Below are positions 2 through 18,217 of a stretch of DNA of 23,135 nucleotides, one piece after another. Under the pieces are notes generated by a model. The model was not told the DNA's origin. It saw nothing but the letters and a program-made list of their open reading frames with translations, and made no database searches. Position 1 is the stretch's first letter. Every line of letters begins with the position of its first letter. Both the position numbers and the translations under genes were made by a program. The DNA comes from a virus: positions 1 through 23,135 of IMG/VR virus record IMGVR_UViG_3300046000_001271; one strand, written 5' to 3'.

Positions 2-298
2 ACAGGTGATAGTAGCAGCGCAAATGGTACTGTAGCCTCATTTAAAATACCAGATGTTCCATATGATTATTATCTCAGTCTGCCAGCTACACAGAGCGTA
101 TCTACATATGAGGTTTCTGGTAAAACAGTGACAGAAATCATATCACGAAATGCTGTTTCTAACTATGACTATGAGCTTGAATTAAACGAGAAAAAAAGAT
201 TCATCAAACTCATCAAGCCTGAATATTATGGATCAATCATGCGCGAATTTTCTGCATTAACTGGAACTGAAGAAAGTTTCTATAGAAGGCTCTCATAA
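2..298 (+). CDS. 53: Baseplate wedge protein gp53-like, C-terminal part (5' end outside window)
   Basis: Open from the window edge in the frame beginning at base 2, with a TAA stop at 296-298; 98 residues are visible. The C-terminal segment YELELNEKKRFIKLIKPEYY, followed by a short helix, has the pattern of T4 gp53, where a beta hairpin with an N-E-K/R-K-R core precedes the terminal helix. In T4 gp53 clamps neighbouring baseplate wedges together and joins them to the hub. T4 gp53 is about 196 residues, so roughly half the protein is probably present. Its stop overlaps the next start as TAATG, which points to translational coupling with the gp27-like hub gene. Its position just before hub genes supports the call. 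The assignment rests on remembered motif similarity and position, so it is probable rather than certain. Confidence 0.7.
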   Translation, partial: TGDSSSANGTVASFKIPDVPYDYYLSLPATQSVSTYEVSGKTVTEIISRNAVSNYDYELELNEKKRFIKLIKPEYYGSIMREFSALTGTEESFYRRLS

Positions 299-1524
299 TG
301 GCAACTGAAGGTGACTCATATAATTCTGAGGAATACTCTACACACTATGATATAGAGGTTGATGGTGTTCCTTCTGAATTGATGGAAGAAATAACGGTCA
401 GAGAAATTATTCTGGGTGAAAGTCTTCTGACACCAGGACTTCAAACTTCTGTCAGAGTACATAGCTTTCTTCATACAAGTGCATATAAAAATATAGATTT
501 ATTCAAGAACAAGACAATTAGAATTAAAATATCTCGTCCTATTCTAAAGGTAAAGAGTGGAGTAAATCCTGCATATAATGAGAGTATGACTATAGCTCAG
601 ACAATTTATAGAGTAGATAGTCGCAAGCTTATTAATAACCAGACAGAAGAGTTTATCATAAGAGCCTGTGATCCAACACAATTAAATGACCTAGAAACTC
701 TCGTAAGTAAATCTTGGAAATGCGCTACACCATCTGATGTAGCTTCTTATGTTTTGAGAACGTGTGCTGGTGTTGAAAAATTAAATATTGAACCGTCAAA
801 CTTTGGTAGTGGATATGGCGCAGATAATATTCATCCATTTCAGGTTGTAAATCAACAGGCTAGTCGTGCTGTTTATGGCGCTGACGATCCTTCATTTGTC
901 CACTTCATGACATATGAGAATGGAGGAACACACTATTTCAGATCAGTAACAAGTCTCAGCGAACAGGGACCAATGATTGTATATGGATATGATGAAACGT
1001 CGAACTCATATAAGAACGTCGATGGTATCATGACATATAGTTTCCCTTGTGATTTTGATCTCATGTCGGACATATTAAATGGCATAGATCGCGATGGTAA
1101 TAATATTAATTCGATCATGTTATTTAATCCATGGAATAAATCATACAGTCTTTTAGGCAGTCAGATTACAGGATGTGGTGTCGGTGCTGGTGTTATCAAA
1201 CATGCCATTTCAAATATGAACAGCGCCAAAAATCAAGATATGTGCCCAGATTATAGTAATGTCTTTCTACTTAAAAGACAAGCTAGAATGTCAATCCTCG
1301 AAAGAGAAAAGACAGCATTAAGACTCACAGTTCCATTCAATACTGATCTACACGCAGGTAAGGTTATTCAGGTCAATCTATATAATAAAGATACAAAGGG
1401 TGTTCTATACGGTTCAGGTGATTATCTCATCGTCAGTATGTTCCATCAGATATTAGATGGTGGACTTGGTACGACAACCATGGAATGCGTAACAAGAACA
1501 GCGGGACAGAAAGGTATAGTATGA
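298..1524 (+). CDS. 27: Baseplate hub protein, gp27-like
   Basis: 408 residues, close to T4 gp27 (391). In T4 the gp27 trimer forms the torus at the centre of the baseplate, joining the tail tube to gp5; the same fold occurs in phage Mu gp44 and in gpD/VgrG proteins. Visible traits fit this: an N-terminal beta-rich domain (about residues 15-125) ending in a region like EEFIIRACDPTQLNDLE, a helix, then NIHPFQVVNQQASRAV (about 178-192), which matches the region where hub proteins carry P-x-x-x-I/V-N-x-L-x-x-R. A second beta domain (about 200-400) follows. AGAAGG at 284-289, 8 bases before the ATG, is a good ribosome site. Its stop overlaps the next gene as ATGA. Fold-level call; sequence identity to T4 gp27 looks low. 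Confidence 0.68.
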   Translation: MATEGDSYNSEEYSTHYDIEVDGVPSELMEEITVREIILGESLLTPGLQTSVRVHSFLHTSAYKNIDLFKNKTIRIKISRPILKVKSGVNPAYNESMTIAQTIYRVDSRKLINNQTEEFIIRACDPTQLNDLETLVSKSWKCATPSDVASYVLRTCAGVEKLNIEPSNFGSGYGADNIHPFQVVNQQASRAVYGADDPSFVHFMTYENGGTHYFRSVTSLSEQGPMIVYGYDETSNSYKNVDGIMTYSFPCDFDLMSDILNGIDRDGNNINSIMLFNPWNKSYSLLGSQITGCGVGAGVIKHAISNMNSAKNQDMCPDYSNVFLLKRQARMSILEREKTALRLTVPFNTDLHAGKVIQVNLYNKDTKGVLYGSGDYLIVSMFHQILDGGLGTTTMECVTRTAGQKGIV

Positions 1525-2768
1525 GTTTGCCAAAGAGTTCGGCCGCTTCAGGTCTGCTATATGGTATCGTAGTTGGTGGTGATCAGAGCGATCCAGATCC
1601 AGATCAGGCTAATGGTCTTCGTGTTTATTTCCCAACTATTCACGGCAAAGATGTTAAAGTAAAAGACCTAGCCTTTAGTCCACGTATTCTGAGTCCAGAC
1701 CGTGCCGCAATGCAATCGTTTTCTGGCGGTCTTGATCCAGGTTCTATGGTCGTAGCTTATAAAGATACAGGTTCTACACAGTGCCAGATTCTAGGTCTGG
1801 CTTCTGATCTGAATAATTATGAAAGCAATATTCCTGGTAACATAGGTCTTTTACAGATTGCACCTATCCTTGCGCAGTATCTCAACATGAGTACTGGTGT
1901 TTCTAGACCACCTACTATTCAACAGAGTACAGAGGGTGGTGCAAAGATATTCAAGATCAATGAGAGGGGCGATCACAATCATAATCTACTCAAAGGTCTG
2001 CCTACTCACGGTGCATTGTTTCCACTAAATGGAATACCTATTGATCCAATCAAAAGTATCACTACTGCAATTGAAGCTGCAACAAATATACCAACAGAGG
2101 GTCTATTAAACTCTCTACCAGGTGTTGCGGTGTCACTTGGTAGTCTTCTTAATAATATTCTAGCTGTTAAAAATTCTAGTAAGCAGCTTAAAAATAAAAT
2201 GTCATCTTCAACGTTTAATGCATTAGGTAGCATGAACGCTCTAATTCAATCTATGGAACAGGGTGAGAGTTCTGGCTTCATGACCTCTGGTCGTGTAAAT
2301 CAGGAAGTCTACACTGCAAATGCAATAGACCTATTATCACAATGTACCAATCTCTCTGATTTGACAGCTTCTATGTTAAGACTCCAATCAGACACAACAC
2401 TATTTGGTATGGAAGCATACGGACCTACAGTTGTAGAGCAAGAGACTGAATTTGGTAAAATTAAGACTAGCTATGGTGCGACAGGAGATCAGATGACATT
2501 AACACCTGCAACAGTAGCACAAGGTCTTAGTGCTTTGTCTAGTCTCATGTCATCTGCTTCAGGATTTCCCAGCGTTGTCCCTGGTCAAAATCTTTTTGGT
2601 CAATCATCAGGCACAATGTTGAATATGATACAGAGATTAGCACCAGGACAAGCTAGTGCGGCTATTTCTTTATTGAATCAAGTTAATACAAGTGGAGTAG
2701 CTAAAGACCTCCATAAAATGATTGAAAAAGTAGTTCAGGGTGGAAATCCTATTGACCATGTTAAGTGA
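1521..2768 (+). CDS. Baseplate hub OB-fold protein, like the N-terminus of gp5 (no lysozyme domain)
   Basis: 415 residues from the ATG at 1521. This start overlaps the upstream stop as ATGA and has AAAGG at 1510-1514, 6 bases upstream; an in-frame ATG at 1485 would lie inside the preceding gene and lacks such a site. Residues about 12-98 (GLLYGIVVGG, then GLRVYFPTIHG, then LDPGSMVVAYKD and QILGL) read as the OB-fold of gp5/gpV/VgrG hub proteins, which docks on the gp27 ring. The remaining 300 residues are predicted mixed and helical, rich in Ser, Leu and Gly, with an odd DHNHN stretch at 151-155. I see no T4-lysozyme-like catalytic pattern. The needle part of gp5 is encoded by the next gene. 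It presumably forms the base on which that spike sits. What the long C-terminal part does is unknown. Confidence 0.65.
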   Translation: MSLPKSSAASGLLYGIVVGGDQSDPDPDQANGLRVYFPTIHGKDVKVKDLAFSPRILSPDRAAMQSFSGGLDPGSMVVAYKDTGSTQCQILGLASDLNNYESNIPGNIGLLQIAPILAQYLNMSTGVSRPPTIQQSTEGGAKIFKINERGDHNHNLLKGLPTHGALFPLNGIPIDPIKSITTAIEAATNIPTEGLLNSLPGVAVSLGSLLNNILAVKNSSKQLKNKMSSSTFNALGSMNALIQSMEQGESSGFMTSGRVNQEVYTANAIDLLSQCTNLSDLTASMLRLQSDTTLFGMEAYGPTVVEQETEFGKIKTSYGATGDQMTLTPATVAQGLSALSSLMSSASGFPSVVPGQNLFGQSSGTMLNMIQRLAPGQASAAISLLNQVNTSGVAKDLHKMIEKVVQGGNPIDHVK

Positions 2769-2784
2769 GGTAAAAAAGATTTAA

Positions 2785-3720
2785 ATGGCAGTTCAAGATC
2801 CAACAGCAGCAGCAAAAGCAGCATTTCCTGGTCAACAATTCAGTACAGGTGATGCTATTACTATTTCAGGTGAAACATACACATATGATGGAAAAGCTTT
2901 TATGCCTGGTGCTGCGCCAGGTGTAGCTGGCACATCGTCAGGCGAAACATTATCAGATACACCACCTAAATGGGACGAGACACAAGACGCTAGAAAATTG
3001 CCTGGCGCTGGTAAATATCCTAATTATTGGGCACATAAGACCAGATCAGGTCATGTCTTTATGATGGATGATAGTAAGGGCGCTGAGAGTATTACTATTC
3101 AGCATCGTGGTGGTTCAATGCTGCAAATTTCACCAGACGGTAAAGTTCATATTCGCGCACAGAAAGGTCAACACACAGTTGTTTTCGGTGAAAATAGAAT
3201 GTATGTGACGGGTGCTTATGATATCACTGTAGATGGTGCTGCGTCAATGACCGTGAAGAAAGATATGAATTTCAATGCAAAAAATATGAACTTCACGGCT
3301 AGTGGTGATATGAATATTAAAGCTACAAATTTAAATCTTCAGCCCACAGGTAAACTAGAAATAGCAGGATCAGCAGTAACATTGAAGTCAAACTCACATA
3401 TCGGCATTGAAGCTCATGGAGCAATCGGTATCGTAGCAAAAGATGGTATGGAAATTGCGTCTAAAGAAGCTGAAGTCGTTATTGTGGCCAGCAAAGATAT
3501 CGGTATTCAGTCTAAGAATGGTAAATTTATAGCACAGTCGGCTACAAACATGTCGTTGAAATCAGACCAAAAGATATCAATGAGAGGTGAAGGAAAAGTA
3601 TCTCTCGTTTCTGGTAATATAGTAGCTATAGATGGTGATGTAGATGTTAAAGTACAACAAGGTGCTTCTGAACCACCAGATGCACAAAAAACTATTCAGA
3701 TTACCAAGTCAACTGCATAA
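2785..3720 (+). CDS. Baseplate central spike, beta-helical needle like the gp5 C-terminus
   Basis: 311 residues. Residues 1-60 are low-complexity Ala/Gly/Thr. YWAHKTRSGHVFMMDD (81-96) followed by GAESITIQHRGGS is the typical entry into the gp5/VgrG needle. Residues about 110-290 are short alternating strands with repeated turns of the form DGKVHI, DITVDG, DMNFNA, DMNIKA, KLEIAG and KDIGIQSKNGK. This is the register expected of an intertwined trimeric beta-helix that pierces the outer membrane on tail contraction. In T4 this domain is covalently part of gp5, whereas here it is a separate gene 16 bases after the OB-fold gene. No HxH metal-binding tip motif is evident at the C-terminus, so a separate tip protein may exist elsewhere. 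Upstream GAGG at 2767-2770 lies 14 bases from the ATG, which is long. Confidence 0.8.
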   Translation: MAVQDPTAAAKAAFPGQQFSTGDAITISGETYTYDGKAFMPGAAPGVAGTSSGETLSDTPPKWDETQDARKLPGAGKYPNYWAHKTRSGHVFMMDDSKGAESITIQHRGGSMLQISPDGKVHIRAQKGQHTVVFGENRMYVTGAYDITVDGAASMTVKKDMNFNAKNMNFTASGDMNIKATNLNLQPTGKLEIAGSAVTLKSNSHIGIEAHGAIGIVAKDGMEIASKEAEVVIVASKDIGIQSKNGKFIAQSATNMSLKSDQKISMRGEGKVSLVSGNIVAIDGDVDVKVQQGASEPPDAQKTIQITKSTA

Positions 3721-3735
3721 CACATAAATAACAAT

Positions 3736-4134
3736 ATGGTACAGACAGAAAGAAAACCAACATATTCAGACTTAGACTTAGACTTTATCGCTCATCCTAC
3801 AACGGGTGATATTGTCATTAAAAAAGGAGAGGATGCTATCAAGCGTTCTGTCCGCAATCTTATTTTGACAAATTTCTATGATCGACCATTCAGATCATTT
3901 ATCGGTTCAAATGCGCTAAAACTTCTATTTGAAAATGCTAATGCTATTACAGCGACCCTATTGAAAGATGCTATCCGTGAAGTCATAGAAAACTATGAGC
4001 CGCGTGTCAAACTAACGGATATAGATTTGAATTTTGATTATGATAATAACGGTTATAATGTCACTATGCGATACATCATTTTAAATAGAGAACAACCTGT
4101 TATCATAAACTTATTCCTGGAAAGAATTAGATGA
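3736..4134 (+). CDS. 25: Baseplate wedge protein gp25
   Basis: 132 residues, the same length as T4 gp25. It is a member of the gp25/GpW-like family that also includes type VI secretion TssE. The conserved E-P-R core is at residues 88-90 (NYEPRV), preceded by an R-S-V-R-N-L helix (37-42) and the stretch FYDRPFRSFIGS (47-58). In T4, gp25 with gp6 forms the inner wedge core and helps start sheath polymerisation. The gene is followed by gp6 with an ATGA overlap at 4131-4134. The start is odd: the 15 bases upstream contain CATAAATA (3723-3730) and no Shine-Dalgarno-like sequence. The identity of the protein is clear from length, motif and neighbour. Confidence 0.96.
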   Translation: MVQTERKPTYSDLDLDFIAHPTTGDIVIKKGEDAIKRSVRNLILTNFYDRPFRSFIGSNALKLLFENANAITATLLKDAIREVIENYEPRVKLTDIDLNFDYDNNGYNVTMRYIILNREQPVIINLFLERIR

Positions 4135-6209
4135 GTACTTCAAATACAGCTTTAAGAGTAACCGAACTAGACTTCAATGCAATCAAATCAAATCTGAAAG
4201 CTTTTCTTCGTAGCCAGTCAGAGTTTCAAGATTTTGATTTTGAAGGTTCTGGTATGTCTGTTCTTCTGGACATACTGGCCTACAATACTCATTATATGAG
4301 CTTCTATCTCAATATGGTAGCCAATGAGAGTTTCCTAGATAGTTCTCAGCTCAGAGCCTCAGTTCTTTCCCACGCTAAAGCCATTGGTTACGTGCCCACA
4401 AGTAAGCAGGGTTCGCAAGCACTATTAAACATGGTTGTGACACCTAGTGGTACTGAATCAAACACAGCAACATCAATTGTCCTAGACAAATATACTAGAT
4501 TTTTAGGTCAAGATATTGATGGTGTAAACTATCCTTTTGTGGCTCTATATTCTAATACTGCTAGTAAATCTGGCGGATCATTTAATTTTTCAAACGTAGC
4601 TATCAAGCAGGGTGAAGTCATTTCGCTCCAGTACGCAATGACACCTACAAATACTAGCAGACGCTTTGAGATTCCATCTGCAAATGTTGACGCAAGCAGC
4701 ATCATTATCACTGTACAGGAATCATCAACCAATACTGATATCAAAACATATACTAAAGTCTCAGACATTACAGTTCTCAATTCAAACTCTGAAGTATACT
4801 TTATTGAGGAAAATGAGAACCTAAACTACACCTTCTATTTTGGTGATAACGTTCTAGGCAAAAAGCCAAGAGTAGGTAATATTATTACATGTACATACCT
4901 CGATAATGTTGGTGGTCTTTCAAATAATATTACAAACTTTACTGCAATAGACTCAATCGGTGGCCTATACAGAAACAATGTCAATATAACAACTGTAACA
5001 TCTTCATATGGTGGTGTTGAAAAAGAAACAATCGAACAGGTCAAGTTTAGAGCACCATATTACTATACGACACAGAACAGAAGCGTTACCGCGTCTGATT
5101 ATGAAACTCTTATCACTAAAGATTTCCCAAACATCCAGTCTGTGTCTGTTTGGGGTGGTGAAGATAATGATCCAGTCATCTACGGTAAAGTTTTCCTGAG
5201 CTTGAAGACAGATCAAAACATCGCTCTCACAAATGCAGATAAGCAATTCATCAAGGATTCTCTCATCAGAAACAGAAATGTGGTGACAGTGACTCCTGAA
5301 ATTGTTGATCCAGACTTTGCGTATATGAGAATTGTAACTAAAATTAGCTATGATCCTAATCTAACATCTCTGCAAGCTAATGAGATTGCAGAGTTAGTAA
5401 AGGCGTCGATCTTAGACTATAATGATAAAGAATTAAACACATTTGATTCAACATTCAGAAAATCTAGACTGTCGCAGTATATGGAAAATTCTGAAAGGTC
5501 TATAGTTGGCTCTGACACAACCATATTTGTCCAAAAGCGTGTCACACTTGATTATAATAATGCTCGTAAGTATGATATCAATTTTAATATGCCGTTGAGA
5601 AAAGGTAATTACCTAAACAAGTTGTTTTCTTTCCCAGAAGTCCAGTTGAACGATTCAAACTCTATTGAAAGAAACGTTTTGTTTGAAGAAACTCTTGATG
5701 CTCCATCAGGAATTAATTCTATCATCATCACTAATAGTGGTTCACTATATCAGACAGCACCGACAGTAGTCATCTCTGGCGACGGTTCAGGTGCAACAGC
5801 AAGAGCGTACATTGCATCTGGTAAAATTGATAGAGTTGAGATTTTAACAAAGGGTGTTGATTACACTAATGCCACAGTTTCATTTATTGGTGGAGAAGGA
5901 ACTGGTGTAACAGCCACAGCGCAACTTGAAAATAATTTTGGTACAGTAAGATCATTCTATTATGACAATACTGGTAAAAAGATCACAATCAATGCAAATG
6001 CTGGTACTATTAACTATTTGACAGGTCTAGTGTCAATCAATTCAATCAGAGTTAACAGTACAATTGAAAATGATTTTTATCCAGATGGTATCGTAACTTT
6101 CTATGCACCAGCAGAAAATGAAATTATTCTACCTTTGAGAAATCGTATCCTGAATATTGATCCTCTTGATCCAAAAAGTATTTTAGTCGAGATGGTGGCT
6201 GAAGAGTAA
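4131..6209 (+). CDS. 6: Baseplate wedge protein gp6
   Basis: 692 residues (T4 gp6 is 660). The protein is of the gp6/GpJ family; two copies per wedge form the ring that holds the inner baseplate together. The N-terminus carries the family signature, DFEGSGMSVLLDILAYNTHY around residues 36-55, then LNMVANESFLDSS. The middle has the family pattern near EQVKFRAPYYYTTQNRSVTA and DYETLITKDFPNIQSVSVWG. Near residues 530-603 it carries two glycine-rich repeats (GSLYQTAPTVVISGDGSGA and a second near GVDYTNATVSFIGG). They are probably an insertion relative to T4 gp6, and related repeats occur in gp7 and gp8 downstream. GGAAAG at 4119-4124 is the ribosome site. The stop overlaps the gp7 start as TAATG (6207-6211). 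Confidence 0.95.
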   Translation: MSTSNTALRVTELDFNAIKSNLKAFLRSQSEFQDFDFEGSGMSVLLDILAYNTHYMSFYLNMVANESFLDSSQLRASVLSHAKAIGYVPTSKQGSQALLNMVVTPSGTESNTATSIVLDKYTRFLGQDIDGVNYPFVALYSNTASKSGGSFNFSNVAIKQGEVISLQYAMTPTNTSRRFEIPSANVDASSIIITVQESSTNTDIKTYTKVSDITVLNSNSEVYFIEENENLNYTFYFGDNVLGKKPRVGNIITCTYLDNVGGLSNNITNFTAIDSIGGLYRNNVNITTVTSSYGGVEKETIEQVKFRAPYYYTTQNRSVTASDYETLITKDFPNIQSVSVWGGEDNDPVIYGKVFLSLKTDQNIALTNADKQFIKDSLIRNRNVVTVTPEIVDPDFAYMRIVTKISYDPNLTSLQANEIAELVKASILDYNDKELNTFDSTFRKSRLSQYMENSERSIVGSDTTIFVQKRVTLDYNNARKYDINFNMPLRKGNYLNKLFSFPEVQLNDSNSIERNVLFEETLDAPSGINSIIITNSGSLYQTAPTVVISGDGSGATARAYIASGKIDRVEILTKGVDYTNATVSFIGGEGTGVTATAQLENNFGTVRSFYYDNTGKKITINANAGTINYLTGLVSINSIRVNSTIENDFYPDGIVTFYAPAENEIILPLRNRILNIDPLDPKSILVEMVAEE
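5718..5937 (+). repeat. Glycine-rich repeat pair inside gp6
   Basis: Two tandem copies of a pattern in which a beta strand leads to G-x-x-Y, a short loop, P/A-T-V, then G-x-G-x-G-A/V-x-A-x-A. Copy one contains YQTAPTVVISGDGSGATARA; copy two contains YTNATVSFIGGEGTGVTATA. The same pattern recurs in the downstream gp7 and gp8 genes. Confidence 0.75.
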
Positions 6210-17122: not shown

Positions 17123-18217
17123 ATGCCAATTACTCCAGTAGACTTGACCGACACATTTGATGTTTGGCGCATTAGAACAAATCAGAATATAAATTTATCT
17201 GAAAGTGCAAACACAGCGGCGGCGGCTGCGTTTACTAGAGCTAATGCTGCAAACGTTCTAGCATTCAATACTGGTATAGGCGCTAATGCTTATGCAACTG
17301 CGGCCACTGCTGGTGCTAATGCATACATGATTACTATCCAGAATGGTTCTAACACAGCAATTGGTACAGGTGCAAATAGTTATTTACTAGCAACTCTAGC
17401 TGGTGCTAATGTTGCCGTAGGTACTGGTGCTAACGCATATATGATCGCTGTTCAGAATGGTTCAAATACTGCCGTAGGTACAGGTGCAAATGCATTCACT
17501 AGTGCAACAATAGCAGGCGCCAATACTGCCGTAGGCGTAGGTGCAAATGCATTCACTAGTGCAACAATAGCAGGAGCTAACACAGCAATTGGTACAGGAG
17601 CTAACGCCTTTGCTACAGCCGCTGCAACTGGCGCAAATACAGTGGCCGTAGCCGCTTTTGCTAAAGCTAACTCATCAAGTGTTAATATCTTTTCAGACTT
17701 AGTTAATACAAACAGATATGTTACCTTTGCAAACAACAATTCTGGTAATACACAATCACTGAACGTTTCTACTTATGGACTATTGTTTAATCCTTTTACA
17801 AGCACACTAACGTCCAATAATATCTCAATTCCTGTGTCATTAGGTATTGGCACAGCACCTTCTGGTACAGCAGGTGAGATTAGAGCAACGAGTGATATTA
17901 CTGCATACTATTCATCAGACATTTCGTTGAAAGAAAATATAAATGTGATACCTGATGCTCTCTCAAAATTAATCCAAATAAATGGTGTTGAATTTGATTG
18001 GAGTCAATCATACATCGACAAAAGAGGTGGTGAAGATGGGTACTTTATCCGTAAAAGAGACGTTGGTGTTATAGCTCAAGAAGTAGAGAAAATTCTTCCT
18101 CAAGTAGTTGCAACAAGAGGTGATGGAATTAAAGCTGTCAAATATGAAAAACTAATAGCATTACTAATTGAAGCTATCAAAGAATTGAACGAAAAAATAG
18201 AATCTAAGAAAGAATAA
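17123..18217 (+). CDS. Short tail fibre with 19-residue repeats and S74 self-cleaving chaperone domain
   Basis: 364 residues. The N-terminus DTFDVWRIRTNQNINL (10-25) is a pattern seen at the start of fibre-like proteins in T4-like marine phages. Residues 64 to about 180 are repeats of G-A-N-A-Y/F with A-x-A-G-A-N-T-A-V/I-G-T and a 19-residue period, probably a trimeric shaft. After a segment with LGIGTAPSGTAGEIRATSD comes a Peptidase_S74 intramolecular chaperone domain: SDISLKENI with Ser265 and Lys270 in the S-x(4)-K spacing of the known catalytic Ser-Lys dyad, DVGVIAQEVEKILPQVV, then a C-terminal helix LIALLIEAIKELNEKI. In characterised relatives the domain guides trimer folding, then cuts itself off before the serine. 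That would release about 100 residues and leave a mature fibre of about 264. Translation probably uses AAAGGA at 17105-17110. Confidence 0.9.
   Translation: MPITPVDLTDTFDVWRIRTNQNINLSESANTAAAAAFTRANAANVLAFNTGIGANAYATAATAGANAYMITIQNGSNTAIGTGANSYLLATLAGANVAVGTGANAYMIAVQNGSNTAVGTGANAFTSATIAGANTAVGVGANAFTSATIAGANTAIGTGANAFATAAATGANTVAVAAFAKANSSSVNIFSDLVNTNRYVTFANNNSGNTQSLNVSTYGLLFNPFTSTLTSNNISIPVSLGIGTAPSGTAGEIRATSDITAYYSSDISLKENINVIPDALSKLIQINGVEFDWSQSYIDKRGGEDGYFIRKRDVGVIAQEVEKILPQVVATRGDGIKAVKYEKLIALLIEAIKELNEKIESKKE
17312..17650 (+). repeat. 57-bp tandem repeats encoding 19-residue fibre units
   Basis: Five full units of 57 bases (17312-17596) plus a diverged sixth. Each encodes G-A-N-A/S-Y/F, seven variable residues (T-I-Q-N-G-S-N or T-I-A-G-A-N type), then T-A-I/V-G-T. 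Units alternate between a MITIQNGSN form and an ATIAGAN form. Units four and five share a nearly identical stretch running from GTGCAAATGCATTCACTAGT, at 17483 and again 57 bases later. Confidence 0.85.
17915..18214 (+). other. Peptidase_S74 intramolecular chaperone domain, predicted self-cleaved fragment
   Basis: Begins at Ser265, the predicted cut site and catalytic serine, with Lys270 as partner. The conserved G-V-I-A-Q-E-V core and terminal coiled helix follow. The cut position is inferred from the endosialidase and related fibre chaperones. Confidence 0.85.

Follow-up and report, generated by a model that had tools for sequence, protein, structure and literature searches.

A T4-type spike encoded as two genes without a recognisable lysozyme, and a separate candidate tail hydrolase, in a clade of aquatic T4-like phages

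Our analysis of the virus record IMGVR_UViG_3300046000_001271, a stretch of 23,135 bases (hereafter the window) whose source is described as an aquatic T4-like phage, indicates that the counterpart of the T4 spike protein gp5 is encoded by two genes, one for an OB-fold protein and one for a beta-helical needle. Taken as a whole, the arrangement is very probably best explained as a gp5 device made of two chains, with a spike that carries no enzyme and a separate hydrolase associated with the tail. In T4 a single chain of 575 residues carries a lysozyme between OB-fold and needle and is cut at maturation, whereas the window has two genes, no lysozyme, and a dissimilar region of 300 residues after the OB-fold. 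The features in question are the following.

1521..2768, + strand: OB-fold spike protein, equivalent to the N-terminal part of gp5, 415 residues (from its fold and its relatives)
1818..2765, + strand: C-terminal region of the OB protein, residues 100-415 (from an AlphaFold model, clade conservation and purifying selection)
2785..3720, + strand: beta-helical needle protein, equivalent to gp5C, 311 residues (from PHROG 430 and a T4 gp5 profile match)

The OB protein and the needle are separate genes, as an earlier note on this DNA had read them; both open reading frames (ORFs) lie where it placed them, and the split holds clade-wide. Although the longest listed form of the OB ORF starts at 1485, alignment with relatives supports a start at the ATG at 1521; the gene then shares 4 bases with the end of the gp27-like gene (stop at 1524). 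Relatives of the OB protein occur on about 30 distinct viral contigs (denoted by L numbers below), with 29-99% identity over the full-length ones, and several further contigs have a relative of the needle only. When profiles of both proteins were run on all ORFs of these contigs, OB protein and needle were two ORFs in every related contig covering both (about 20 loci), so that a single chain cut during maturation is found nowhere in the clade. The spacing between the genes ranges from -11 to +18 bases across loci, the -11 probably reflecting the choice of start codon, and, counted from the frame of the OB gene, the needle lies in frame 0, 1 or 2 depending on the locus. Many loci have a stretch resembling a Shine-Dalgarno sequence upstream of the needle, for example AAGGAG in L007. 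Moreover, codon-position differences of 0.26/0.14/0.54 and 0.27/0.20/0.53 show the pattern of protein-coding sequence for both genes, and the C-terminal region of the OB protein likewise evolves as protein. At L003:2871-3774 the needle frame is broken in that single contig; as near-identical contigs have it intact, an error of sequencing or assembly is the probable cause.

The needle is homologous to the C-terminal beta-helix of T4 gp5, here in a gene of its own and putatively trimeric. It matches PHROG 430 (annotated "baseplate hub and tail lysozyme") at positions 318-550 with an expectation value (E) of 1e-18, and a profile of seven needle sequences matches both residues 358-493 of the solved T4 gp5 (E 1.4e-8) and the central spike of phage KP1, 9f4a (E 6e-15). 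Matches of the needle to sarcoglycan and DUF2345 were read as generic beta-helix repeats. The maturation cut of T4 gp5 falls at Ser351/Ala352, and the first conserved needle motif, SGH, lies 45 residues past it in T4; in the shortest needles of the clade (L015, L013) the same motif lies about 38-40 residues past the first residue. These distances put the gene boundary within about ten residues of the T4 cut point.

For the OB protein, the AlphaFold model shows a spike-type OB-fold in residues 8-95, with strands at 12-93. VIA-align of this model over residues 8-95 or 8-125 gives Z scores of 8.8 for the P1 spike, 7.5 for a PVC spike and 7.4 for T4 gp5, and the T4 S351L structure, 1wth, is among the matches. 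The top three PDB matches by Foldseek are also spikes (R2 pyocin, VgrG1 and VgrS), each weak, and among named viral structures the best matches, with marginal E of 4e-3 and 1e-2, are to gp5 of the Synechococcus phages S-CAM9 and S-T4. In sequence the OB protein is highly divergent. One distant relative, L015, matches PHROG 430 at positions 13-69 (E 2.6e-6), the sole member of the family to do so. Thus both domain calls of the earlier note, OB-fold and needle, hold up against the P1 and T4 structures and the gp5C homology. A tblastn search with the OB protein and with L015 against 50,697 phage records gave no match, and no bacterial genome contig was confirmed to carry the family.

Between OB-fold and needle we found no lysozyme, which agrees with the earlier reading that the 300 residues after the OB-fold show no such pattern. 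The OB protein of the window has no hydrolase match in Pfam, PHROGs or NCBIfam, nor do residues 100-415 match a hydrolase among PDB sequences, whereas the same Pfam search applied to T4 gp5 as a positive control returns Phage_lysozyme PF00959 with E 1.3e-12. VIA-align of the OB model listed no lysozyme either, residues beyond 125 being barely covered there.

Where, then, is the enzyme? The earlier note had suggested that it might be encoded elsewhere, and the gene neighbourhood of the clade supports this. The stretch upstream of gp53 and gp48 has, in relatives, genes on the opposite strand for gp4, a protector of DNA ends, a tube-like protein and T4_baseplate, followed by one for a protein of 685-1130 residues, which we call the carrier; in relatives whose contigs extend that far, a protein sharing the carrier N-terminus adjoins the T4_baseplate gene. 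The population of the window is reached through a chain of overlapping contigs, the window agreeing with L027 (99.87% over 12,727 bases), L027 with L028 (99.4%) and L028 with L029 (99.9%). L029 encodes a carrier of 738 residues beside T4_baseplate (gp26-like); its gene runs on the strand opposite to the OB gene, at a distance of about 5 kb. The carrier matches Phage_lysozyme PF00959 (GH24) at 138-258 with E 1.4e-11, and its lysozyme domain aligns with that of T4 gp5 at 27% in blastp (E 1.5e-5, in a small set). The catalytic Glu139 and Asp148 are retained, while the third catalytic position, Thr in the family, is Arg (residues ~139-157, YWDVNAWRIGYG), as it is in L031. The same protein has an M15-type HxxGxAxD motif at 410, and the related protein of L051 matches Peptidase_M15_3 slightly below its cut-off. 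A search for PF00959 in eleven records including the window found none, because the type of lysozyme differs among relatives and because the window record stops short of the hydrolase gene. The carriers are encoded at the following positions.

L029:329-2545, carrier protein
L031:2256-4391, carrier protein
L023:5171-8110, carrier protein
L026:310-2367, carrier protein
L025:122-2350, carrier protein
L051:723-3092, carrier protein
L053:965-3112, carrier protein
L056:729-2858, carrier protein
L060:27-3419, carrier protein
L063:1217-3340, carrier protein

The carriers keep the N-terminus LTPxQ...LFPxYY and mostly keep the C-terminus, while the modules differ: lysozyme and M23 in L031, a lambda-R-like lysozyme in L023 (PHROG 90, E 1.5e-20), Phage_lysozyme2 ("phage tail lysozyme") with an SGNH-like module in L053, a transglycosylase-like module with M15_3 in L051, and SLT in L060; the carriers of L025 and L063 gave no convincing Pfam match. 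Some carriers (L025) have a motif like GEKGPESIVP, which we take to be one seen at the C-termini of tape-measure proteins, and no tape-measure gene was recognised in the retrieved stretches of the clade (L023, L027, L029 and neighbours). A carrier with exchangeable wall-hydrolase modules is the less expected part of our finding. It may be, though we put this forward tentatively and with slightly less than even confidence, that loss of the lysozyme from the spike enabled a protein of fixed ends into which glycosidase modules (GH24, lambda-R-like, tail-lysozyme-2, SLT) and peptidase or esterase modules (M15, M23, SGNH) can be swapped. If so, such plug-in modules would let wall specificity change while the conserved puncturing machinery is left untouched.

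The same arrangement extends to cyanophages, beyond what the earlier note saw. The gp5 proteins of P-RSM6, S-RIM2, ACG-2014e and ACG-2014f gave no lysozyme match, and separate lysozyme, peptidase or endolysin proteins are encoded downstream of gp51 in P-RSM6, ACG-2014f and S-CREM2, as confirmed by family search; in other cyanophages annotation or position suggests a separate hydrolase. The spike is split in S-RSM4 (g5 and a "putative base plate lysozyme") and in S-CRM01 (g59 and g58, the latter noted as gp5), and the needle has its own gene right after the OB gene also in ACG-2014e/i/j, S-CAM4, S-WAM2, S-H9-1, S-CREM2, S-B68, S-N03 and S-H34. Of these, S-CREM2 gp212 matches our needle profile (hhalign E 8e-8), while for partner proteins of the ACG-2014e type a weak profile match, together with position and annotation, suggests the needle role. 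There are also differences. The Kyanoviridae P-RSM6 and S-RIM2 have a one-chain gp5, unlike the split in the window; Kyanoviridae OB proteins are longer (about 690-990 residues) and outside the OB-fold do not align significantly with that of the window; and their hydrolases have tape-measure-like N-termini, in contrast to the LTPxQ...LFPxYY start of the window clade. A further parallel is the Anabaena myophage A-1(L), whose spike is free of enzyme and whose hydrolase domains are in the hub (PMC10966104). There too wall hydrolysis has shifted to another baseplate component, but the A-1(L) enzymes form insertions within the hub protein, whereas here they reside in a separate protein. We thus regard the arrangement as a variation on the T4 puncturing device, shared with cyanophages from marine and freshwater hosts and mostly unremarked there; in the literature searched we found no paper that states the OB/needle split in words.

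Could the separate hydrolase instead be a late endolysin for cell lysis, the phage entering without a tail enzyme? The PHROGs label of its lysozyme module is indeed "endolysin", and a spike without enzyme seems to be tolerated in some phages, since one report describes a contractile phage that lacks enzymatic domains (PMC11948020). However, the gene adjoins baseplate genes, conserved non-enzymatic ends flank its variable modules, and the closest kin of its lysozyme domain are mostly found within tape-measure proteins of other phages. Moreover, comparable cyanophage proteins are abundant in virions: mass spectrometry of S-CREM2 found 73 and 71 unique peptides of the "endolysins" gp208 and gp209, beside 40 of gp211 (the OB protein) and 14 of gp212 (the needle) (PMC10665884). 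In our searches gp209 matches Phage_lysozyme and gp208 glycoside hydrolase 19. While the authors raise packaging of the two endolysins inside the capsid as a possibility (PMC10665884), a location in the tail is at least as likely, because their genes lie among baseplate genes. We therefore consider a pure lysis role unlikely.

A slightly less likely alternative places an unrecognised wall-degrading enzyme in the last 300 residues of the OB protein, where it would replace the T4 gp5 lysozyme. Residues 100-415 are conserved throughout the clade and under purifying selection, they hold several conserved histidines (H163, for example, is invariant), and they could be too divergent to match known families. 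On the other hand, the profile search against hydrolase families that the earlier note proposed found no confident match in this region, the best Foldseek matches of the OB model in the PDB are spikes and none are enzymes (the C-terminal part being barely covered and the model moderately confident), and a dedicated hydrolase gene lies nearby. The model of residues 100-415 mixes helices and strands: it contains a beta-hairpin, is helical at 183-290 and has more strands and helices besides; its predicted local distance difference test (pLDDT) is about 71-88 in the block 201-300 and lower elsewhere, so that confidence is low to middling. The other activity that the earlier note had allowed for in this tail thus found no support. 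Most likely these residues form a collar or docking region that would take the place of the T4 lysozyme ring and hold the needle.

A mistake of sequencing or assembly, or a programmed frameshift that fuses the two ORFs, is a scarcely credible account of the split: the broken needle frame of L003 does show that errors exist in the data set, but the same boundary recurs in independent contigs from many metagenomes, two ORFs at every covering locus together with the variable relative frame exclude the single-frame error that the earlier note had named as a refutation, and the Shine-Dalgarno-like stretches before many needle starts also make a conserved frameshift fusion very unlikely.

Several points nevertheless weigh against a two-chain device with a separate tail hydrolase. 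The hydrolase gene lies outside the window record and was reached via metagenomic contigs that overlap one another and stem from a near-identical population. The change from Thr to Arg makes the GH24 activity of the L029 protein less than certain, and the M15-like call for the same protein rests on its motif, the AlphaFold model (pLDDT 42) being unusable. The place of the hydrolase in the virion is suggested by analogy, with cyanophage S-CREM2 as the sole parallel (PMC10665884). Finally, the family assignment of the OB protein depends on its predicted fold, on synteny and on the match of one distant member, since direct hhalign comparison of its profile with T4 and cyanophage gp5 gives weak matches, even if these keep the register of the OB-fold.

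How would such a two-chain device work? We propose that the phage makes its gp5 in two chains from the outset, and that an OB trimer would cap or continue the gp27-like hub with a needle trimer seated on it non-covalently. This state would resemble that of T4 after its Ser351/Ala352 cut; in mature T4 both gp5 fragments remain together. The spike, lacking an enzyme, would work mechanically on the outer membrane, while the hydrolase may be held at the tube tip or the hub via its conserved ends. After puncture it would be released into the periplasm and there presumably cut both glycan and peptide.

The surroundings of the two genes fit this kinship with T4, the likeness to gp5/gp5C comprising the hub OB-fold, the homologous beta-helical needle and the neighbours gp53, gp27-like, gp25 and gp6. 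By Pfam and PHROGs the window has a baseplate order of the T4 type: gp53-like, gp27-like, OB protein, needle, gp25-like, gp6-like, then further wedge proteins of the baseplate and gp8-like ones.

2..298, + strand: gp53-like baseplate wedge protein, C-terminal part, truncated at the window start (PHROG 232, E 2.5e-11)
298..1524, + strand: gp27-like hub protein (PHROG 350 tail protein, E 4e-26)
3736..4134, + strand: gp25-like wedge protein or sheath initiator (PF04965, E 5e-12; PHROG 261, E 9e-43)
4131..6209, + strand: gp6-like baseplate wedge protein (PF21379, E 7e-21; PHROG 219, E 5e-157)

The full-length gp53-like homologue on L011 matches Phage_gp53 PF11246 (E 2e-11), and PHROG 350 is also matched by the cyanophage gene immediately upstream of gp5. 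Needle and gp25-like gene are 15 bases apart in the window; at L015:8718-15459 several genes, some of them fibre- or lectin-like, stand between them. Further along, window 17123-18217 encodes a tail-fibre-like protein with a C-terminal Peptidase_S74 intramolecular chaperone domain (PF13884, E 9e-13). A search of window 1-23135 with Pfam PF05488 gave no PAAR gene for a spike tip; S-CRM01 and S-CREM2 have a PAAR gene close to the spike genes, the L053 and L015 records gave weak matches only, and the coordinates listed with this observation are L074:13573-13866 and L064:19281-19625. As a clue to the host, psbA gave no matches in seven related records.

More generally, the spikes of T4-like aquatic phages are routinely annotated "tail lysozyme", yet those examined here have none, and the enzyme resides in a neighbouring gene annotated "hypothetical", "endolysin" or "peptidase". 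Recognising the split arrangement corrects these annotations. Moreover, it indicates that a gene boundary can stand in for the maturation cut of T4, and it allows a direct test of whether the exchangeable hydrolase modules of the tail follow the host's type of cell wall.

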